40,603 nucleotides of DNA from Nitrosomonas sp. (GTDB lineage: Bacteria > Pseudomonadota > Gammaproteobacteria > Burkholderiales > Nitrosomonadaceae): positions 1 through 40,603 of the forward strand of contig JAGNZK010000025.1 in assembly GCA_017984435.1 (NCBI GenBank). Direction: 5' to 3'. The position numbers and the translations under genes were made by a program. Of this stretch, positions 29,333 through 40,603 are shown piece by piece (position 1 is the stretch's first letter; every line of letters starts with the position of its first letter). Below the pieces are notes generated by a model. It did no database searches. It was not told where the DNA came from and was given only the letters and a program-made list of their open reading frames with translations.

Positions 29333-30622
29333 ATGGCAAACTTCGGGATAAATTTATTATGGGTGTATAAATTCGTGTCCCCTTATGAACTTTTCATTGG
29401 TTTGCGCTATACGCGCGCCAAAAAACGTAACCATTTCATCTCGTTTATCTCATTAATCTCCCTGCTGGGCATTACACTGGGAATGACCGCGCTGATTACC
29501 GTCATGTCAGTCATGAATGGTTTTCAAAAAGAAGTGCGCACCCGCATTCTGGGCGTCGCTTCGCATGTCCAGATCGGCAGCATGCATGGCAATATGAGCC
29601 ACTGGCAGCAAATTGCGGATGAAGCAAGCAAGCATTCCGCCGTAGAAGCTGCTGCGCCTTATGTGAATGCGCAAGGGATGTTGTCACATAATCAGGTCGT
29701 ACAAGGCGTCATTGTACGTGGCATTTTGCCAACGATGGAAAACAAGGTGGCTGATTTTGCAAAAATGATGGTGAGTGGCGAACTGGATCATCTGGTGCCG
29801 GGCGAATTCGGTATCGTCATCGGCATGGAATTGGCCCGCACCATGGGAACTTTCGTCGGTGACAAGATTGTGTTGATCTCACCGCAAGGACAAGTCACCC
29901 CCGCGGGCATTTTACCGCGTCTGAAACAATTTACCGTAGTGGGCATCTTTGAAGTGGGTCATTTTGAATACGACTCCGGGTTAGTCCTGATTCATATGTT
30001 CGATGCGCAAAAGCTGTATCGCATGGAAAATGATGATGTGTCCGGTGTACGCTTGAAGCTAAAGGATTTATTTCAAGCTCCCACAGTGGTGCAAGAATTA
30101 CCCGCACTGCTGACAATCGACAGTTATATCAGTGACTGGACTAAACAGCATGCCAATTATTTTCGTGCCATCCAGATCGAGAAACGCATGTTGTCATTGA
30201 TTCTGGCATTGATTATCGCAGTCGCAGCATTCAACATTGTATCCACATTGGTGATGGCGGTGACCGACAAACAAGCGGATATTGCGATTTTACGCACCCT
30301 CGGCGCCAGCCCGCGCAGTATCATGAAGATATTCATTGTGCAGGGCACGTTTATTGGTGTCTTTGGCACTATTCTGGGTGTTGCCGGCGGTATGTTGTTA
30401 GCTTACAACGTCGGTGAAGTAGTTGCATTTATTGAATGGCTGCTCAACGTGCAATTCCTGTCGCGTGAGGTTTATTACATCAGCAAGATTCCAACCGATC
30501 CGCAAATGACGGATATCACAACAGTTGCCATCACTTCATTTATTCTAACGTTATTGGCGACTATTTATCCCAGTTACCGTGCATCCAAGGTGAATCCGGC
30601 AGAGGCACTGCGCTATGAATGA
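29333..30622 (+). CDS. lolC: lipoprotein-releasing ABC transporter permease LolC/LolE
   Basis: This 429-aa inner-membrane protein extracts mature lipoproteins and hands them to LolA. It has the family N-terminus [23 protein letters not shown], then [23 protein letters not shown] in TM1. A large periplasmic domain follows (about 70-290), then three further membrane helices with [19 protein letters not shown] and the end [18 protein letters not shown]. The ATG at 29333 is uncertain; a GTG at 29375 before SPYELF would give the more usual N-terminus. It overlaps lolD by 8 bases. Confidence 0.94.
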
Positions 30623-31304
30623 TATGGTTATTTCCTGTCGCAATCTGTTCAAGCAGTTTTCCCAGGGCGATCTGTCAGTTCCGGTATTAAAGGGGGTTAA
30701 TCTGACGCTGACTAAGGGTGAAATGCTGGCCATCGTCGGCGCATCCGGTTCAGGCAAAAGCACGTTGCTGCACGTACTTGGCGGGTTAGATGCACCCACC
30801 AGCGGGGATATCAAGATTCTCGGGCAGGATATTGCGCATATCAATGAAGAAGAGCGATGCCGGTTACGCAATGGCTCCCTGGGCTTCATCTATCAATTTC
30901 ACCATTTGCTGCCGGAATTCAGTGCGCTGGAAAATGTCGCTATGCCGCTGCTAATCCGCCGCCTGCCGAATCGGGAGGCATATGATCGTGCAGCCGATAT
31001 TTTGAAACAAGTGGGCTTGAGTCACCGTCTGACGCATACGCCCGGTGAATTATCCGGTGGCGAGCGCCAGCGCGCCGCTGTTGCACGTGCATTGGTAACA
31101 CAACCCGCGTGCATTCTGGCTGATGAGCCGACGGGGAATCTTGATCGCCATACTGCAGAAGCAGTGTTCGATTTAATGCTGGAGCTGAATCATAAAGTCA
31201 ATGCCAGCCTGATCATCGTAACCCACGATGCGCGATTGGCTAATCGCGCGCAACAGGTCAAACAATTGATTGACGGGGTTTTATGTGACATTGCGAATGC
31301 ATAA
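30615..31304 (+). CDS. lolD: lipoprotein-releasing ABC transporter ATP-binding protein LolD
   Basis: This 229-aa ABC ATPase powers the LolCDE lipoprotein-sorting complex. Walker A is GASGSGKST (42-50). The Q loop with [23 protein letters not shown] is diagnostic of LolD. The signature is LSGGERQR and Walker B is [12 protein letters not shown]. The ATG overlaps the lolC stop, so translation is coupled. No lolE is present, consistent with a single LolC/E-type permease forming a homodimer, which is inferred. Confidence 0.96.
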
Positions 31305-31404
31305 TGAATCATGCAATAAAAAATCAGATAATTCCGGCATATCTACACAAACAAACAAGCAATACTGATTAACGCTGACGGAGATTCAGCGCAATGCTAC
31401 AACC

Positions 31405-31418
31405 ATCCTAAAAAGGAT
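31405..31418 (+). promoter_or_regulatory. small hairpin covering the fbaB ribosome site
   Basis: ATCCT-AAAA-AGGAT forms a perfect 5-bp stem with a 4-base loop. The AGGAT arm is the Shine-Dalgarno sequence for the ATG at 31423. The stem is short and AT-rich, so it may only slightly slow initiation or respond to temperature. Confidence 0.3.
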
Positions 31419-31422
31419 AAAA

Positions 31423-32472
31423 ATGATGAACATTACGACTATTCTGGGAAATGAAAGTGACTTTCTGCTCAATCATGTATGCAACACGATACCCAAGAGT
31501 AGCTTGCAATTACCGGGGACTGATTTTGTCGATCGCGTGATGGCCTGGAGCGATCGCAAACCCAGTGTATTGCGCAATCTTCAGATGCTGTATAACCATG
31601 GACGTTTGGCAGGCACGGGTTATTTATCACTGCTGCCGGTAGATCAAGGCGTTGAGCATTCTGCAGGCGCATCATTTGCGCCTAACCCGATGTTTTTTGA
31701 TCCTCAGCATATTGTTGAACTCGCGATTGCAGGGGGTTGCAATGGCGTCGCTTCCACGCTTGGCGTGCTGGCCATCGTAGCGCGGCGCTATGCACATAAG
31801 ATTCCCATGATTCTTAAAATTAATCATAATGAATTATTAACCTACCCCAATAAATTCGACCAAACGCTTTTTGCCAGCGTCAACCAGGCTTTTGATATGG
31901 GTGCCTGCGCAGTCGGTGCAACAGTTTTTTTCGGCGCTGAAGAATCGCGTCGTCAAATTCAGGAAGTTTCACAAGCATTCGAGCATGCGCATAATCTGGG
32001 TATGGTTACCATATTATGGGCTTATACACGTAATGCCGCATTCAAAACCGCTGATCAGGATTACCATGTAAGTGCTGATCTGACCGGCCAGGCGAATCAT
32101 CTGGCAGCAACGATCGGTGCTGATATTGTCAAACAAAAAATGGCAACCAATAATGGCGGTTATAACGCCATTAAATTCGGCAAGACGCATCCCAAAGTGT
32201 ATAGCGAATTGACGACCGATCACCCGATCGATCTGGTGCGTTACCAGGTCGCCAATTGTTATATGGGACGAATCGGCATGATTAATTCGGGTGGCGAATC
32301 AGGCAGTGATGATTTGCACCAGGCAGTTCGAACTGCGGTCATTAACAAGCGTGCAGGCGGCATGGGGCTCATTTCCGGACGCAAGGCATTCCAGAAACCT
32401 TTTGCGGAAGGTGTCAAGCTGCTGAACGCTATCCAGGATATTTACCTATCTGAAGCCGTAACGATTGCCTAA
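31423..32472 (+). CDS. fbaB: class I fructose-bisphosphate aldolase (DhnA/FbaB type)
   Basis: This 349-aa Schiff-base aldolase interconverts fructose 1,6-bisphosphate with dihydroxyacetone phosphate and glyceraldehyde 3-phosphate, serving glycolysis, gluconeogenesis or the Calvin cycle. Family stretches are [39 protein letters not shown] and [14 protein letters not shown], with the Schiff-base lysine at about 237. It ends with [13 protein letters not shown] and [15 protein letters not shown], the phosphate-binding part. The gene stands alone, 118 bases after lolD, with AAGGAT before its first of two adjacent ATGs. Confidence 0.94.
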
Positions 32473-32556
32473 CTAATCCAGGCAACCTGCACTATGCACT
32501 TGAATTTATTTTCATCAACAACTTACTGATGACTGATCGATCTTTCTAACCCGCTT

Positions 32557-34266
32557 ATGCGTACTTTATTTACGTACATCATGGTTTTCCCCCGACGCAG
32601 TGCATTTGTTCTGGTTGCATTGCTCATCGCCGGCATCGCTGAAGGGCTGAGTTTAACCGCGTTACTGCCTTTGTTATCGATCGCTATGGGCGATTCCAGC
32701 GAATCGAGTGATTCAGGTATCGGTAAATTCATGGAAAAAATGCTGCAAAATATGGGCATTGAACCCACTTTGGATACCATCTTGTTCATTATCGTTGGTG
32801 GCATGTTTTTCAAGGGGCTGGTGCTGCTAATAGCCAATCGCCAGGTAGGTTATACCGTTGCCCATGTGGCTACCGCTTTACGCCTAGATCTCATTGAGGC
32901 TTTGTTGGCCAGCCGGTGGCAATATTATTTACGTCAACCTGTTGGGTCGCTGGCTAACTCGGTTGCGACGGAAGCCTATCGCGCGGCCAACGGTTTTGAA
33001 CACAGCGTTAATGTGTTGGCCCTCTCCGTTCAAGTGCTGGTATATGCCATCGTGGCATTATTTATTTCATGGGAAGCCACACTAGCTTCATTGATCATCG
33101 GTTTATTCTTACTGATTGCATTGAATCGCTTAGTCAATGCCACGCGTCGTGCAGGCACCAAACAAACCCACTTGCTACGCAATTTATTGACATACTTATC
33201 CGATGTGCTCAGTTCCGTGAAATCACTCAAAGCCATGGCACGCGATAACGTTGCCGATGCCATTCTGCATGAACAAACACAGCAACTGGAAAAAGCCACA
33301 CGTCGGGAAGTCATGAACAGAGAAGCTTTAATCGCTCTCCAGGAACCCATTCTTGCCGCCTTGACCGCCAGCGGTCTGTATCTCGCGCTGGTAATATGGG
33401 AGTTATCCTTGCCGGAAGTCATGCTGATGGTTTTTTTATTGACCCGTATCCTGGGATTACTGAATAAAACGCAACGCAGATACCAACAGCTTGCCGTACA
33501 AGAAAGCGCTTATTGGGCTTTACGCAAGGCTGCCGAAGATGCACGCGCGGAAGCTGAAAGTACAACCGGAACACTGCAACCCACGCTGCAAAAAGGCATT
33601 ACCTTGCAGCATGTCAAATTCGATTATGGTCAGAAAACCATTTTCAAGGATCTAACTATCGAAATACCGATTAACTCATTCACCGCAGTCATGGGACCCT
33701 CCGGTGTCGGCAAAAGTACTTTGCTGGATTTACTCTGCGGATTAACCGAACCACAATCCGGTGAAGTCCGCATCGACGGCATATCTTTGCACGACATCAA
33801 TCTGCGCCAGTGGCGCCACATGATTGGCTATGTCTCGCAAGACACTATCCTGTTGCATGATACGGTGATGAATAACATTCTGGTCGGAGAACCCACATTG
33901 ACCGCTGCCGATGCTGAACGGGCGCTACGCCAGGCCGGTGCCTGGGATTTTGTCAGTGCCTTACCGGAAGGACTGCAAACTGCTGTAGGTGAGCGCGGTG
34001 GACTGCTTTCCGGCGGACAACGCCAACGTATCGCCATCGCACGCGCACTAGCGCACAATCCATCGTTTCTAATCCTGGATGAACCCACCAGCGCACTGGA
34101 TCCGGAAAGCGAACAAACCATCTGCGAAACACTACAGAAATTATCACAAAACCTGACGATTATCGCTGTCTCACACCAACCCGCGGTTATCAATGCCGCA
34201 GATCGTGTGTTTATACTTTCCAATGGGGTTGCGGAATTGCTGTCGCAAGGGCCTGATCAGCACTAA
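32557..34266 (+). CDS. ABC exporter half-transporter (fused membrane and ATPase domains)
   Basis: This 569-aa protein has six membrane segments in about 1-315, belonging to a type IV ABC exporter domain. The ATPase domain has Walker A GPSGVGKST (380-388), Q loop IGYVSQDTILLHDTV, signature LSGGQRQR, Walker B FLILDEPTSALD and a switch His in AVSHQ. It would work as a homodimer in the inner membrane. The loop SDSGIGKFMEKMLQNMGIEP between the first two helices is periplasmic. Substrate is unknown; no outer-membrane or adaptor gene lies nearby. It is convergent with the EAL-like gene at 34301. Confidence 0.9.
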   Translation: MRTLFTYIMVFPRRSAFVLVALLIAGIAEGLSLTALLPLLSIAMGDSSESSDSGIGKFMEKMLQNMGIEPTLDTILFIIVGGMFFKGLVLLIANRQVGYTVAHVATALRLDLIEALLASRWQYYLRQPVGSLANSVATEAYRAANGFEHSVNVLALSVQVLVYAIVALFISWEATLASLIIGLFLLIALNRLVNATRRAGTKQTHLLRNLLTYLSDVLSSVKSLKAMARDNVADAILHEQTQQLEKATRREVMNREALIALQEPILAALTASGLYLALVIWELSLPEVMLMVFLLTRILGLLNKTQRRYQQLAVQESAYWALRKAAEDARAEAESTTGTLQPTLQKGITLQHVKFDYGQKTIFKDLTIEIPINSFTAVMGPSGVGKSTLLDLLCGLTEPQSGEVRIDGISLHDINLRQWRHMIGYVSQDTILLHDTVMNNILVGEPTLTAADAERALRQAGAWDFVSALPEGLQTAVGERGGLLSGGQRQRIAIARALAHNPSFLILDEPTSALDPESEQTICETLQKLSQNLTIIAVSHQPAVINAADRVFILSNGVAELLSQGPDQH

Positions 34267-34300
34267 CGAATTCTATTTGTTTTATGTTTTCAATAACTTC

Positions 34301-35170
34301 TCAAACAGCTTCTGTAATCAGTTTTTCGTAATAATTACCTTGTACCAGATCAAATCCCTCAGAAACCGCAATATTCGCCTGTTCTTTTTGTTCAATTCGC
34401 TGCAATATCGTTTGTCCGTTGGCCAAACTTTGTAGTTCCATCAATTTCTTTAAATCCGCTGACCAAATAGCGTCCGAATGCTGACCGACTTCAATATTGG
34501 GTGCATTAATACGCAAATAATTCGCTGACATTTTGACAATCAAATCCCAAAGCCCGGTTGCTGCGTATAACGAGCCGACATTAAGCGCGATTTGATAGCC
34601 ACGACGACGATAATTGTATAAGCCATCCAACAACTGGGTGTGATTTAAAGCATAAGAACTATTAATTGTCGTTGAAATGACTACATTCTTGGTTGCCAGT
34701 CCGCATTTGAAAATAATTTTCTCAAAATAGGCACCATGCTCTTGTTGAACACTAAGTATATGTCTTGGATCAACATCCAGGAAAACGATGCCACCGTTAT
34801 GCACATGACTGAGATAATTCAACATGTGAACCGTTCTGCATAGGCGATCCAGGCTAATAATGGATTGGAAATTAGCAGGTTGCGTAGCAACATCTGTGAT
34901 CAAATTGCCTATTTCCGTGGACTGTACGCTATGCACGCTATTGTCATAAGGTGTAACGGATAATTGCGCAATATGACCGATAAGCGCTTCACTATTGTCA
35001 GCCTGCCGCACAGGCAAAAAAGCACTGCTCACCCGAATAGGGCCAAAAATACCACTCACCAAACCTTTGTCCAAAATAAACGGACGGAAATTGGAATGAT
35101 GTTCGTGCTCAAAACGATCGTTAAAATAATCGACTAATTGCTGTAAAGGTACTAATTGTTGTATAGGCAT
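34301..35170 (-). CDS. degenerate EAL-domain protein, second copy in the sulfate locus
   Basis: This 289-aa soluble protein has an EAL-like fold but no catalytic motif. AFLPVRQADNSEALIGHIAQL takes the place of the EAL strand. SLDRLCRTVHMLNYL (106-120), FLDVDPRHIL (130-139), NYRRRGYQIALN (186-197), YLRIN and VQGNYY (276-281) follow in EAL order. The metal-binding Glu, Asn and Asp residues are absent, so no c-di-GMP hydrolysis is expected. It is a clear paralogue of the protein at 38125. The start at 35170 follows GGAGT; an in-frame ATG at 35221 was rejected. It lies 132 bases after cysA on the same strand. Confidence 0.75.
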   Translation of the reverse strand: MPIQQLVPLQQLVDYFNDRFEHEHHSNFRPFILDKGLVSGIFGPIRVSSAFLPVRQADNSEALIGHIAQLSVTPYDNSVHSVQSTEIGNLITDVATQPANFQSIISLDRLCRTVHMLNYLSHVHNGGIVFLDVDPRHILSVQQEHGAYFEKIIFKCGLATKNVVISTTINSSYALNHTQLLDGLYNYRRRGYQIALNVGSLYAATGLWDLIVKMSANYLRINAPNIEVGQHSDAIWSADLKKLMELQSLANGQTILQRIEQKEQANIAVSEGFDLVQGNYYEKLITEAV

Positions 35171-35302
35171 AGTTACTCCATAGTTTAAGCGTGCGCTACC
35201 AAAGCGCAATTGGCTCATCAAGCGGCATCAAAATTTGCAGAATGCTCAAAGCATCGAAACGAACCTCATTGATTTCTCTTGAAGGTAGTCATACAAAATA
35301 TT

Positions 35303-36403
35303 TCAGCGCGCTTGAGCTGCATCAGCTATTCTATTTTTATGACTCGGAAACAGATCCAGGCGACGTGGTTTAATAAAAACTTCGTCGCCCCTTACCAGTT
35401 GTAATTCACGAAAACGCTCCTTACTCATTTCAACCTGGATTGGTGTTTTATCGTCATCATTGTTACGCACCAATTCCAGTCGCACGATCGGGCCGACGGA
35501 AAGAACGTGAACGACACGTGCGGCCAGCGCCGCTTCACCATTTTGCGTCCGCTCAACTTCAATTTCATGCGGGCGCACGTAGGCAACTGCCGCCAGTTCT
35601 TCGGCTTCAGCATGCTCCGGCGCATCCACTTCGATATCGCCAATCCAGGCGCGACCACGGTGCAGGCGACTATGAAACAAATTCACATTACCAAGAAACT
35701 CATACACGAACGGGCTGGCGGGTTGCTCATACACCTCATCCGGTGTGCCGATTTGTTCGATCTTACCTTCATTCATAACCACCACCCGGTCGGCAACTTC
35801 AAGCGCTTCTTCCTGATCATGCGTCACAAATACACTGGTGATGTGCATGTCATCGTGCAATCTGCGCAACCAGGAACGCAATTCCTTACGCACCTTGGCA
35901 TCCAACGCACCGAAAGGCTCATCCAGCAATAATACTTTCGGCTCCACCGCCAATGCTCGCGCCAATGCAATACGCTGGCGCTGACCGCCGGAAAGCTGAT
36001 GCGGATAACGATCCGCCAGCCAATCCAGTTGTACCAGATGCAATAACTTCATGACGCGATCGCGGATTTCCGTATTGGAAGGACGGAATTTCTTGGGACG
36101 TACGCGCAAACCAAAAGCCACATTCTCGAAAATGGTCATATTGCGAAATAACGCATAATGCTGGAATACAAAACCGACTTGACGTTCGCGTACATGTTGA
36201 TCGGTAGCATCTTCACCATGGAATAACACCTGACCGCTATCGGCTGTTTCAAGCCCGGCGATCACACGCAATAACGTGGTTTTCCCGGAACCTGAAGGAC
36301 CTAACAACGCCAGCAACTCACCGGAGTGCACTTGCAAGTTCACATCATGCAGCGCAGTGAAGGTGCCAAATTGTTTGGACAGATTAAGGACTTCAATACT
36401 CAT
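35303..36403 (-). CDS. cysA: sulfate/thiosulfate ABC transporter ATP-binding protein CysA
   Basis: This 366-aa ATPase drives sulfate import with CysT and CysW. Walker A is GPSGSGKTT (35-43), Q loop FVFQHYALF, signature LSGGQRQR, Walker [13 protein letters not shown] and switch [12 protein letters not shown]-terminal TOBE-like regulatory domain is at about 240-350 ([12 protein letters not shown]). It overlaps cysW by 4 bases. The length and TOBE domain are normal. Confidence 0.95.
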
Positions 36404-37278
36404 TCGTGACCTCTTGATTTTTGATGTTGTTGATTGCGTAATTCGATCAATGTTTTTAATACGAGCGTCACCAATGCCAGCAATGCCAGCAGTGAAGCCA
36501 CGGCAAAGGCGGCTGCGAAGTTGTATTCGTTATAGAGAATTTCGACATGCAGCGGCATGGTATTGGTGCTGCCGCGAATATGACCGGATACCACCGATAC
36601 CGCGCCAAACTCGCCCATGGCCCGTGCATTACACAGGATAGCGCCGTACAGCAGACCCCATTTGATATTGGGCAGCGTTACCTTATAGAAGGTCTGCCAA
36701 CCGCTCGCGCCCAGCACCACGGCGGCTTCTTCTTCCTCGGTGCCTTGCGCCTGCATCAGCGGAATCAACTCGCGTGCGATGAATGGCACGGTCACGAAAA
36801 CTGTTGCCAGCACAATCCCGGGTACAGCAAAAATAATTTTCATATCGTGCTCCGCCAGCCATGGACCAAACCATCCTTGCAAGCCAAAGACAAGCACATA
36901 GATCAGCCCGGAAACCACCGGGGATACCGAGAAAGGCAAATCGATCAAGGTGATCAACAGATTCTTGCCGCGAAATTCAAACTTGGCAATGGCCCATGCC
37001 GCAGCAACGCCGAATACCAGATTCAAAGGCACCGCAATCGCCGCCACCGTAAGCGTCAATTTGATGGCGGAAACCGCATCAGGATCGGTGATCGCAGCAA
37101 AATAGACATCGCTGCCTTTCTTGAACGCTTCATAAAACACCGAAATCAGCGGGATAAAAAGAAACAAGGTTAAAAAAATAAGCGCCACGCCAATCAAGGA
37201 CCAGCGTACCCAGGCAGGTTCTTGCGTCGCACGTTCTTTTTGAGCATCCGGAGATAAGGGAAAAGTAATCGCCGTCAT
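36400..37278 (-). CDS. cysW: sulfate ABC transporter permease CysW
   Basis: This inner-membrane permease of about 292 aa has six transmembrane helices. It contains [17 protein letters not shown] and the cytoplasmic coupling motif [28 protein letters not shown], then [18 protein letters not shown]. The start at 37278 was chosen because GAGGTGATCACA precedes it. The upstream in-frame ATG at 37299 overlaps cysT and has no ribosome site. It is coupled to cysA by a 4-base overlap. Confidence 0.95.
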
Positions 37279-37288
37279 TGTGATCACC

Positions 37289-38122
37289 TCATGACTCAAT
37301 ACTGCGGCGCCGACTCCACCATTGCAGCAGGTTGATAATTAGTAGCAAAATAAACGAAATCACCAGCATGACGACCGATAATGCCGTAGCACCTGCGTAG
37401 TCATACTGCTCCAGTTTGGTAATAATCAGCAGTGGTGTGATTTCTGAGACCATCGGCATATTCCCGGCAATAAAAATAACCGATCCGTACTCGCCAATCG
37501 CGCGCGCAAAGGCAAGCGCAAATCCGGTCATCAATGCCGGAAAGAGTGCCGGGAAGATTATTCGCGTAAAGGTTTGCCAGCGATTGGCGCCGAGCGTTGC
37601 TGCCGCTTCTTCTAGCTCGGATTCAATATCCTCGAGTACCGGCTGCACTGTGCGCACCACAAATGGCAGACCGATAAAAGTCAGCGCCACAAAAATTCCC
37701 AGTGGTGTAAAAGCAACCTTGATGCCCAGCGGCTCAAGGTGCTGACCAATCCAACCATTGCCCGCATACAGCGCGGTCAACGCAATACCGGCCACGGCGG
37801 TTGGCAGCGCAAAAGGAAGATCCACCAAGGCATCGACTATTTTCTTACCGGGAAAGTGGTAACGTACCAACACCCAGGCCACCAAAAGACCAAATACTGC
37901 ATTGACGACGGCAGCTGCAAATGACGCACCAAACGTCAAGCGGTACGAGGCCACCACACGCGGTGTTGTGACTATGGACCAAAACTCCGGCCAGGATAGT
38001 TCGGCCGTACGGATAAATGCTGCCGACAGCGGAATCAGTACGATCAGGCTGAGATACAGCAATGTAAACCCAAGCGCCAGATTGAATCCTGGCAAGATGC
38101 TGTGTTGTTTAAAAGTATGCAA
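37289..38122 (-). CDS. cysT: sulfate ABC transporter permease CysT (CysU)
   Basis: This 277-aa inner-membrane permease has six helices. [19 protein letters not shown] and the EAA-type motif [30 protein letters not shown] are typical, as is [17 protein letters not shown]. It pairs with CysW. AAGGAG lies before its ATG. The stop of the upstream EAL-like gene is only two bases away, so the two are co-translated. Confidence 0.95.
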
Positions 38123-38124
38123 AT

Positions 38125-38991
38125 CTAACTCCTTCCTGTTAAATTCATTGCGGTCTCGCCGGTATTGACCGTTTCTGAAACGGATAAGCGATCAATCATT
38201 CTGATTGCATGCACCGGTTCGCCAAGCAAATTCCCTTGCAGATCATCCGCATTCGCACGGATGGCAGCTGCTAATTGCACCGGTGTTTCGATATCCCGCA
38301 CCAGCAAGCTTGCGCCAAAGCTATGTATGGTATCCACCAATGATGCAATGGCTTCATGCCGTATCAGGTCATCCGCCTCAATACGCACAATGTTCGGGTA
38401 CAAGCTACCCAATTCCACCATCCAGTCACTACGAGTACCGCTGTAATTGGCAGCGATTTGATAACCGCGGGAACGATAGTTGATAATGACATGCTGCAAC
38501 AGCTTCCAATTGCGATTAACGATAGCCGGAATTTCAATGACCACTCGTGAAGTTTTCACGCCGATCAAATCAAGAAAATTTTCAAAGGCACGGCCATGAT
38601 CGTCTTTAACACTCTCCAACAAGCGTGGATGGACATCCACAAACAAGTTATCCAATTTGGAAATATTATTGAAATAGTAATTCAACGCGTGAATCGCTCG
38701 GCATAAACGATCCAGATCAACCAACTGATCATCCTTTGATGCCAGTGAAAAAACCTGCCAAGGCCAAAGCGCGACATCATTATTTGCTTTGGAACGGATA
38801 TAAGCTGCGTGCCCCGTGGTTTTGCCTTCGTTGATACTAAAAATAGGCTGAAAAACGCTGGTTAATTCGCAATGATAGAAATGTCCACTTATCCAGCCAT
38901 TTTCAGCGCGTTTCATAGAATAGTCAGTGGCTGATTGGATAAGCTCAAATTCATCCTTGACAGTAAAAGTATGGTTTGCTGATGTATTCAT
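38125..38991 (-). CDS. degenerate EAL-domain protein directly upstream of cysT
   Basis: This 288-aa soluble protein keeps the EAL-domain layout but not its chemistry. [23 protein letters not shown] (45-67) replaces QPI...GxEALx[18 protein letters not shown] (91-106) is kept. FVDVHPR (117-123) replaces the Asn-bearing strand, and VVIEIP (150-155) still has Glu. [14 protein letters not shown] (177-190) replaces [19 protein letters not shown] replaces VKID, and LQGNLLGEP (251-259) matches QGYLFGKP. Missing metal ligands argue for a sensor or adaptor, not a phosphodiesterase. It ends 2 bases before cysT. Confidence 0.8.
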
Positions 38992-39049
38992 GGAATAATC
39001 CCTGCATAAATTTAGCGGCTATCTATTGACAGCGAAGCTATTTGAATTC

Positions 39050-39394
39050 TTAGTGCAATCTCCGGAATTGATCTTTGCTTCCACAAAAACTTTTACAACA
39101 ACAATCTTCATCTGTTTGATGAGCATTCAGCAATTTGTCTTTCAACTCATTCACTGAGCGATGGCAATACACTAACGGAATACCGCTGCGACTCGCTTTT
39201 TCCTTCACTGAATTGGCAAGGCTGTGATTGACGTAATCGCAAATAACGACAACTAACCGTGTTTCATTTGGAAGTGAACGTTTGTTAAATCCTTTCTTGC
39301 GACCACTCCAATGCTCAATGCGTGCATGGCGCTGAGTGGAAATGAGGTGCTTGAACGATGTAACATAATCCCCGCCGACAATTAGAACAGTCAT
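39050..39394 (-). CDS. DUF2325-like small protein with cysteine-rich tail
   Basis: This 114-aa soluble protein begins MTVLIVGGDYVTSFKHLIS and contains ARIEHWSGRKKGF, LVVVICDYVNHSLANSVKEKA and GIPLVYCHRSVNEL. This is the Rossmann-like DUF2325 pattern of a strand, a short substrate-like loop, then D and H-bearing strands. The C-terminus has C98-C99-C100 and C104, and C52 and C77 lie in the core, which could bind metal or respond to redox. AAGGAC precedes the ATG. It lies between sbp and the EAL-like gene in the sulfate locus. Function unknown. Confidence 0.7.
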   Translation of the reverse strand: MTVLIVGGDYVTSFKHLISTQRHARIEHWSGRKKGFNKRSLPNETRLVVVICDYVNHSLANSVKEKASRSGIPLVYCHRSVNELKDKLLNAHQTDEDCCCKSFCGSKDQFRRLH

Positions 39395-39417
39395 ATTCAG
39401 TCCTTATCCTTATAGTG

Positions 39418-39439
39418 GTAGCGCACCGCAGCGCGCTAC
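39418..39439 (-). promoter_or_regulatory. intercistronic hairpin after sbp
   Basis: A perfect 7-bp GC-rich stem (GTAGCGC 39418-39424, GCGCTAC 39433-39439) with an 8-base loop lies 8 bases beyond the sbp stop and 23 bases before the next ATG. Hairpins at this place in binding-protein operons often protect the upstream message from 3' decay, allowing more binding protein than permease. Confidence 0.6.
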
Positions 39440-39447
39440 ACGGTGTT

Positions 39448-40446
39448 TTACTTCAGGTAAATCTGATCAAATGTGCCGCCATCAGCAAAGTGGACTTTGT
39501 GCGCACTTTTCCAGCCACCAAAGACATCATCAATTTTAAACAACTCGATCTTTGGAAACTTGCTGGTATATTTCTCAGCAATCTTTGCATCAGTGGGACG
39601 ATAGAAATGTTTGGCAGCGATTTCCTGACCCTCTTCTGAATAGAGGTACTGGAGGTAAGCTTCAGCAATTTGACGCGTACCTTTTTTGTCGACTACTTTG
39701 TCGACGACCGCAACCGGTGGTTCCGCAAGAATACTCAGTGACGGTATGACAACTTCAAATTTATCTGCGCCATATTCCTTGAGCGCCAGAAAAGCTTCGT
39801 TTTCCCAGGAAATCAAAACATCACCCACACCACGCTCCACAAACGTTGTGGTTGAACCGCGCGCGCCGGAATCCAATACCGGCACATTTTTGTAGATGCT
39901 TCTGACAAATTCCTGTTCTTTATTCTCACCATACTTCCGTTTGCCAAATTCCCATGCTGCCAGATAATTCCACTGTGCACCGCCGGAAGTTTTCGGGTTG
40001 GGTGTAATGACAGAGACACCGGGACGCGCTAAGTCATCCCAATTTTTAATTCCCTTGGGATTACCCTTGCGTACCAGGAAAATGATCGTCGAGGTATACG
40101 GTGTACTGTTATGTGCCAATCGCTTCTGCCAATCTTCCGGGAGCAACTTGGCTTTCTCCGCGATGGCATTAATATCGTTGGCTAACGCCAGTGTGACAAC
40201 ATCCGCTTCCAAACCATCAATGACAGATCGTGCCTGTTTGCCGGAACCGCCGTGAGATTGCTGGACTTTCACTGTTTCCTTGGTTTTTGCCTGCCAGTGC
40301 TTGGCAAAAGCAGCATTAAACTCCTGGTAAAGCTCACGGGTTGGATCGTAAGAAACGTTGAGTAAGGTTTTTTGCGCCAATACATTACCGCTGATAACGA
40401 GACTTGCTGCCAAAAAACTTGTTGCTAGCCATGTTTTAGTATTCAT
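39448..40446 (-). CDS. sbp: periplasmic sulfate-binding protein
   Basis: This 332-aa protein has a signal peptide of about 1-24 ([11 protein letters not shown]). The mature part opens [20 protein letters not shown] and has [27 protein letters not shown], the Ser/Gly sulfate-binding segment. [29 protein letters not shown] and [27 protein letters not shown] follow. It delivers sulfate (possibly thiosulfate) to CysTW. TTGGAGG lies before the ATG. It is the first gene of the operon and is followed by a stabilising hairpin. Confidence 0.96.
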
Positions 40447-40528
40447 GATTTTTCCTCCAATTAAAATTTAAGATTGTTTACAAGAGACTGATTAACACTT
40501 CAAAGTATAGGAAGTCCGTGTCGCCTGA

Positions 40529-40542
40529 GCGTTGATCGACGC
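40529..40542. promoter_or_regulatory. near-palindrome upstream of sbp
   Basis: GCGTTGATCGACGC is symmetric except for one T/G pair and lies 83 bases before the sbp start. TATACT on the minus strand (about 40505-40510) is a possible -10 box, but no good -35 box was found at the right distance. This may be an operator for sulfur control (CysB-type), unproven. Confidence 0.25.
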
Positions 40543-40603
40543 AAGGGTGCGAGTGGCCACCAGCGCAAGAGTTTGCTGCGATACGGTTTTTTACGAATTC
40601 TCC

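Follow-up and report, generated by a model that had tools for sequence, protein, structure and literature searches.

Degenerate EAL proteins are best known from the control of motility and biofilms. LapD and FimX have the EAL fold, have lost catalysis and are multidomain proteins of biofilm or pili, and YdiV/RflP is a degenerate stand-alone EAL protein that binds and blocks the flagellar transcription factor FlhDC. Excerpts of PMC5052742 describe LapD as a degenerate EAL effector, and the trigger phosphodiesterases PdeR and PdeL of Escherichia coli as EAL proteins that work by touching a promoter or a transcription factor. Here we describe two stand-alone degenerate EAL proteins, EAL2 (288 residues, 38125..38991) and EAL1 (34301..35221), which are encoded in a sulfate-uptake operon on the minus strand of a 40,603-nucleotide contig of Nitrosomonas sp. 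(JAGNZK010000025.1); this whole stretch is called the window. Reading from the contig end inward, the genes are sbp, a DUF2325 gene, EAL2, cysT, cysW, cysA and EAL1. In ammonia-oxidising bacteria, the sulfate-import operon also encodes descendants of an enzyme degrading cyclic di-GMP (c-di-GMP) that have lost key residues, and selection on these dead proteins suggests a regulatory link, so far little remarked, between sulfur supply and the EAL signalling family.

The link to sulfur genes was assessed in relatives. A profile from 15 relatives and one peptide pattern yielded 144 encoding stretches in named bacterial genomes, of which 80, with flanks of up to 10 kb per side, were kept and underlie all counts out of 80. 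The pattern used for these 80 loci was [LF]D[RH]LCR[ATV][IVL]H[AV], so that its conservation among them is partly built in. Neighbours were assigned by BLASTP against 17 reference proteins and counted above identity thresholds; the named loci (L numbers) and the genome set (G numbers) overlap and are not independent samples. The flanks contained sbp in 62/80 loci, cysT in 56/80, a CysB/Cbl gene in 21/80 and an encapsulin shell gene in 20/80. No gene accompanies the EAL gene of relatives more constantly than sbp, which lies within 600 bases on the same strand in 56/80, and cysT was within 100 bases in 38/80. Among 49 nitrifier-type loci (assigned by title plus six by hand, with the distant L194 counted in), 47 carried at least one of sbp, cysT, cysW, cysA, encapsulin or desulfurase, as compared to 19 of the 31 other loci.

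We also measured distances in whole genomes. EAL2 matches were searched in 61 genomes and split at 54 bits, the score of the weakest EAL1 row and a value chosen after the list was seen; proximity was counted only where the genome had cysT, and two fragment rows (G058:C5:142910 and G008:C36:12401) were excluded, leaving 81 of 83. Of the 36 matches scoring 54 bits or more, 27 had cysT within 12 kb; of the 30 weaker ones, none did. For generic EAL genes, taken from the best 150 Pfam matches listed, 87 were in cysT genomes and only two were within 12 kb (G007 at 7.8 kb, G016 at 10.0 kb). A chance neighbourhood is ruled out by the flank counts together with both distance controls. Across 37 genomes of the same genus, 17 had EAL2 and cysT (one of them, G003, counted by a cysT fragment at a contig end), two EAL2 only, seven cysT only and 11 neither (Fisher p 0.002, uncorrected for relatedness). 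The earlier note on this DNA had staked its reading on conserved co-occurrence of the EAL genes with the sulfate operon, and this co-occurrence turned out to be strong. Its narrower proposal, that the proteins serve sulfate transport, stood as far as operon linkage goes but drew the circle too tightly: at several sulfur loci cysTWA was not found in the flank (L162, L164, L172, L176), and in two genomes of the same genus, G010 and G015, EAL2 was found and a cysT orthologue was not, G015 being 87% complete with EAL2 near a contig end. The idea that all EAL relatives are sulfur-linked was likewise rejected, as an Azonexus query gave sbp-free loci and the Duganella group and Pseudothauera had no sulfur gene in the flank. 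Of the loci retrieved with the intact Azonexus protein, 3/8 with frames below 400 residues and 0/22 with longer frames had sbp within ~1.5 kb.

The two window proteins are related, with 29% identity over 249 columns (E 1e-21), and share the motifs LDRLCR, FxDVxPR and NYRxRGYQIAxN, as had been noticed earlier. EAL2 passes the PF00563 profile (80.6 bits vs a cut-off of 31.3), while EAL1, the second and more diverged protein, falls short of it (23.7 bits); a barrel is nevertheless predicted for both. AlphaFold2 models reached a predicted local distance difference test score (pLDDT) of 79 and a predicted template modelling score (pTM) of 0.77 for EAL2, and a pLDDT of 81 and pTM of 0.81 for EAL1, and the 50 PDB entries listed as structure matches of each were, without exception, EAL-domain proteins. 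According to these models, EAL2 and EAL1 are predicted EAL barrels, and a different fold is ruled out for both by the PDB matches; the fold check proposed in the earlier note thus came out in favour of its assignment. Its statement that both proteins are degenerate was also borne out. At the ten positions that are canonical for EAL domains (E R N E D D K D E Q), EAL2 reads A R D E N Y R E R Q and EAL1 reads I S D S N V R N Q Q, which leaves 3/10 and 1/10 residues, respectively, and neither protein has the residue set of an active c-di-GMP phosphodiesterase. In 53 nitrifier rows, the glutamate of the EAL motif was kept in one, the loop-6 aspartate pair in none and the late glutamate in none.

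These residues bear directly on whether EAL2 could be a metal-free c-di-GMP receptor, resembling FimX or LapD, that gates the sulfate transporter, for example via the C-terminal regulatory domain present in CysA (PF17850, PF12857), with EAL1 as partner. The loss of the EAL glutamate, aspartate pair and late glutamate speaks against this, and among the ten positions the EAL1 pocket has kept the glutamine alone, with 1-2/10 canonical residues across 12 EAL1 rows; c-di-GMP binding by EAL1 is doubtful. Still, nitrifier EAL2 conserves R66, E153, Q252 and a basic residue at 203, its closest solved sequence, YkuI, has a c-di-GMP complex as one of its two entries, and the tight spacing to cysT in 38/80 loci would suit a transporter partner. 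The sulfur loci with no cysTWA in the flank, and the two EAL2 genomes with no cysT orthologue found, fit poorly with gating. On balance, we consider such a receptor unlikely. A variant in which the emptied pocket senses a nucleotide of sulfate assimilation, namely adenosine 5'-phosphosulfate (APS), 3'-phosphoadenosine 5'-phosphosulfate (PAPS) or 3'-phosphoadenosine 5'-phosphate (PAP), and passes the signal to a regulator, its earlier role having been c-di-GMP hydrolysis by a protein encoded next to sbp and CysB/Cbl regulator genes, would be a long shot.

The shared LDRLCR stretch deserves a separate comment. Its core, DRxxRxxHxxN, occurs also in intact relatives and in cousins without a sulfur neighbour, and, judged from these alignments, the stretch is no marker of dead EAL proteins. 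Among 20 rows found without the search pattern, which take in cousins whose flanks lack a sulfur gene, the core was present in 20 and HGxxF in 18. We do not take the helix signature to prove that the sulfur partner is constant, given its presence in cousins lacking a sulfur neighbour and the preference built into the search pattern.

Catalytic loss in the wider EAL group is graded, and members with all ten residues are encoded next to sbp in other families. Of 11 rows in a first set retaining all ten residues, five had sulfur genes in the flank (L108, L174, L179, L195, L197) and six did not; of seven further such rows, four had sbp within 1.2 kb (L251, L252, L253, L255), a proportion that is not unbiased, since the ten regions behind these rows were hand-picked, mostly for short frames, three of them already known to have sbp. 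Between 3 and 7 of the ten residues remain in rows from Zoogloeaceae, Sterolibacteriaceae and Oxalobacteraceae, and 2-5 in nitrifier EAL2 rows. One family (L099, L256, L257) has sbp-EAL-cysTWA beside acetyltransferase-encapsulin-desulfurase, and its EAL protein has lost one or both loop-6 aspartates and the late glutamate. In a quick tree with long branches (93 of 118 rows), the nitrifier rows and EAL1 fell into a 68-row clade with no intact row inside, with a Shimodaira-Hasegawa-like approximate likelihood ratio (SH-aLRT) support of 98. Such a topology makes a single origin of catalytic loss in the nitrifier/EAL1 clade likely. Separate decays are seen in the Duganella group and in a second EAL gene of L174, L179 and L191. 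EAL1 may be a lineage apart from EAL2: in the tree it branches, on a long branch, away from the clade of nitrifier EAL2 rows, but a single clade was not rejected (approximately unbiased test, p-AU 0.249). In two loci, a short second EAL-like gene of ~230 residues precedes an intact or nearly intact EAL gene (L249:8936-10560, L250:8087-9673).

Near-complete catalytic loss in nitrifiers raises the question of whether the proteins are merely relics, a former phosphodiesterase gene decaying without function in the operon. Broken copies do exist: EAL1 is broken in G008, and the EAL gene between sbp and cysT is fragmented in G058 (L098:9824-10021 plus an adjoining piece). The same-genus genomes with cysT and without EAL2 fit this picture too. 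However, compared with three Nitrosomonas relatives, the ratio of nonsynonymous to synonymous substitution rates (dN/dS) was 0.087-0.135 for EAL2 and 0.15-0.20 for EAL1, next to 0.11-0.16 for the DUF2325 gene, 0.05-0.06 for sbp and 0.03 for cysT. These ratios indicate that EAL2 and EAL1 are under purifying selection, and as they lie far below 1, a pseudogene is unlikely. Long open frames also occupy the EAL2 place in Nitrosomonas, Nitrosospira and Nitrosovibrio records, N. europaea, which is kept in the laboratory, carrying the locus as well (L155), and some loci have tandem copies. We therefore rate a functionless relic as very unlikely indeed. The tandem EAL2-type genes precede cysT in four Nitrosomonas loci (L155:8891-10789 of N. 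europaea, L143, L148, L151).

In relatives, the locus extends beyond uptake. Its overall scheme is sbp-[DUF2325]-EAL-[encapsulin 2A-cysteine desulfurase]-cysT-cysW-cysA-[serine acetyltransferase-like]-[cbl/cysB], where the bracketed genes occur in part of the loci only. In L088, the family 2A encapsulin shell scored 536.6 bits (cut-off 380) and the cysteine desulfurase 915.3 bits (cut-off 800); the serine acetyltransferase-like gene of some relatives scored 163.5 bits, above the EpsC-type threshold of 150 and below the CysE threshold of 210.65. Depending on the relative, the encapsulin and desulfurase genes lie between EAL2 and cysT or after cysA. Several Nitrosomonas-type loci have the pair inside the sulfate operon (L088:7700-10439, and L080, L087, L089, L091, L095, L120 and L155). 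Where cysTWA was not found in the flank, sulfur genes surround the EAL gene in other orders: sbp-EAL2-encapsulin-desulfurase-acetyltransferase-cbl in L162 (Nitrosospira) and L164, and EAL-sbp divergent to acetyltransferase-encapsulin-desulfurase in Methyloversatilis L172 and L176. In the excerpt of PMC8049743, the family 2A encapsulin of Synechococcus elongatus is described as induced by sulfate starvation. Because of these genes in relatives and this induction, the locus looks like one for sulfur supply as a whole, not for transport alone.

The same genes could mean that the EAL proteins serve sulfur storage, for instance as assembly or release factors for encapsulin 2A, desulfurase and acetyltransferase, rather than uptake or transcription. 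The flanks of 20/80 loci include an encapsulin gene, which lies within 400 bases of the EAL gene in 12/80; in L108 and L195 some 1-2 kb separate it from an EAL gene that is intact, and the starvation response in S. elongatus is in keeping with such a role. Against it, 60/80 loci had no encapsulin gene in the flank, and neither encapsulin 2A nor desulfurase is among the seven window genes from sbp to EAL1, all of which were identified. A search of the window genome likewise gave no encapsulin shell match, although 14 control genomes were equally silent, so that absence is not proven. A storage function seems decidedly unlikely to us.

A second recurring neighbour is a transcriptional regulator. 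For the intact EAL gene of Azonexus L174, the start codon is either a GTG that shares bases with the stop codon of cbl or an ATG 2 bases downstream of that stop. The earlier note had placed EAL1 at the sulfate uptake locus, which holds for the window, and EAL1 follows cysA also in 5/8 other same-genus genomes with a strong match, G008 with its broken copy among them; elsewhere, it can sit outside the operon (G013, G025, G027), and in these 3/3 cases it is divergent to a CysB-family LysR gene of 299 residues (L116:7095-9077, L117:6896-8873, L118:8352-10357). This gene scored 311.7 bits, below the curated CysB-family cut-off of 402. A close orthologue was found in 1/25 sampled same-genus genomes, namely G013, the query's own genome, and the other EAL1-bearing genomes sampled (G000, G007, G008, G020, G022) had distant ~40% matches to the regulator only. 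These pairs tie EAL1 to a CysB-type regulator apart from the operon.

Taken together, we favour, at slightly less than an even chance, the reading that EAL2 and EAL1 are pseudo-phosphodiesterases of a sulfur-supply regulon that act by protein contact, likeliest on a CysB/Cbl regulator. The ancestor would have been an EAL phosphodiesterase, perhaps of the trigger type, that coupled a sulfur-supply protein to c-di-GMP. In nitrifiers, turnover would then have been lost and the protein-contact function retained. The likeliest target would be a CysB/Cbl-family regulator, whose activity EAL1 and EAL2 might tune under scarce sulfate; the cbl-EAL junction, the pairing of EAL1 with a regulator gene and the loci where cysTWA was not found speak for this choice, with CysA as second choice. 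The gene order beside CysB/Cbl genes is no more than suggestive of anti-activators of the YdiV type. The tandem genes of the four Nitrosomonas loci further suggest heterodimers, and one may speculate that EAL1 pairs with EAL2, or that the two copies of a tandem EAL2 pair do so in some other Nitrosomonas.

Several observations weigh against the contact-based reading. A sulfur gene was not found in the flank of 12/31 non-nitrifier and 2/49 nitrifier-type loci, and about half of the intact relatives examined had none; catalytic decay has also occurred without sulfur neighbours in the Duganella group. Seven same-genus genomes carry cysT without EAL2, so a genome can have the transporter and dispense with EAL2. 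With a CysB/Cbl gene near in just 21/80 loci, the case for this partner is weaker than that for the sulfur link as such, and the helix signature, being common to cousins without a sulfur neighbour, points to no sulfur partner. In the 53 nitrifier rows, R66, E153 and Q252 are kept at 94-96% and an arginine holds the catalytic lysine position in 96%; this conservation leaves room for metal-free ligand binding by EAL2. Finally, the quick tree has long branches, and the placement of EAL1 in it is unsure.

Such exceptions might instead mean that the EAL family reports another nutrient or signal and that the sulfur link is inherited gene order only. The neighbours are indeed different in the Duganella group, in Pseudothauera and in the amtB-linked L194, and EAL2 follows a glycerophosphodiesterase-like gene in G010 and G015 (L097:5936-8338 and L096:6583-8974, respectively). 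Yet sulfur neighbours recur in varied arrangements, including sbp-EAL-cysT, cbl-EAL, EAL divergent to acetyltransferase-encapsulin and EAL1 divergent to a CysB-type gene. Had a single gene order simply been inherited, this variety would not be expected. An unrelated signal is very unlikely in our estimation.

As to the remaining features of the window, the earlier layout of seven genes on the minus strand agrees with coordinates and family scores. Sbp, the periplasmic sulfate-binding protein (39448..40446, minus strand; NF008022, 521.7 bits vs a cut-off of 288), the permeases CysT (37289..38122, minus strand, TTG start; TIGR02139, 440.8 vs 246.1) and CysW (36400..37299, minus strand; TIGR02140, 431.6 vs 329.1), and the ATPase CysA (35303..36403, minus strand; TIGR00968, 401.4 vs 342.75) each exceed their curated cut-off, identifying the sulfate ATP-binding cassette transporter Sbp-CysTWA. 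The DUF2325 gene (39050..39394, minus strand; PF10087, 52.1 bits vs 33.6) encodes 114 residues with a cysteine-rich tail. From sbp to EAL1, the intergenic gaps are 53, 58, 2, -11, -4 and 81 bases; the 2-base gap, as previously stated, separates the EAL2 stop from cysT, whose start is taken to be a TTG. EAL1 may instead start at an ATG at 35170, since 4/7 aligned orthologues start six residues further in, and the cysA/EAL1 gap would then be 132 bases. In a pattern scan, a 7-pair hairpin appeared between sbp and the DUF2325 gene (39418..39439), which is no clear operon terminator because its 3' T-run is on the plus strand only. Terminator-like sites numbered 8 vs 7.6 expected in shuffles in that scan, promoter- and terminator-like sites being no commoner than in shuffles, and no Rfam match was obtained within 30000-40603. 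The closest named relative of the window EAL proteins is Nitrosomonas sp. Nm84. A DUF2325 gene is near EAL2 in 32/49 nitrifier-type loci, most aligned copies having the cysteine-rich tail. Upstream of sbp, L081:5515-7197 encodes an outer-membrane barrel of the PF13372 Alginate_exp type (325 bits), perhaps a sulfate porin; frames matching it occur in 44/49 nitrifier-type loci, and the window contig stops short of that position.

Among open-licence papers, we found none whose title or abstract start links EAL proteins to a sulfate-uptake locus. In Pseudomonas aeruginosa, pipA (PA0285) may lie near sbp-cysTWA. Degenerate EAL proteins are a known kind; what looks new is to find them at a locus for sulfur supply where the stages of decay survive: one EAL lineage is intact, half-decayed or dead at comparable loci and is linked with sulfate uptake and, at a quarter of the loci, with family 2A encapsulin. 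This makes it testable whether c-di-GMP signalling is wired to sulfur supply, and how a second-messenger enzyme turns into a plain regulator.

Compared to described systems, the closest solved sequence among the 49 matches listed is YkuI of Bacillus subtilis (PDB 2bas, 2w27), which has 431 residues vs 288 in EAL2 and an additional C-terminal domain; we know of no link of YkuI to a sulfur locus. LapD and FimX were among the fold matches listed, yet the window EAL proteins stand alone and lie in a sulfate operon. With family 2A encapsulin/desulfurase operons, relatives of the locus share the gene pair and the serine acetyltransferase-like gene, whereas the window operon has no encapsulin gene. 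In the part of the encapsulin survey PMC8346489 consulted, serine O-acetyltransferases are an enriched accessory of encapsulin operons, and the main-text term count there was 0 for 'eal' and 0 for 'transporter'. The mode of PdeR and PdeL may, by analogy, apply to the intact sulfur-locus relatives; the window proteins differ in lacking most catalytic residues, and they would act on a sulfur regulator instead of the curli pathway. YdiV, a name carried by no entry among the 49 matches listed, could serve only as a model for EAL1 and EAL2. The trigger type would provide a published precedent for the proposed ancestral state, and YdiV one for the end state.

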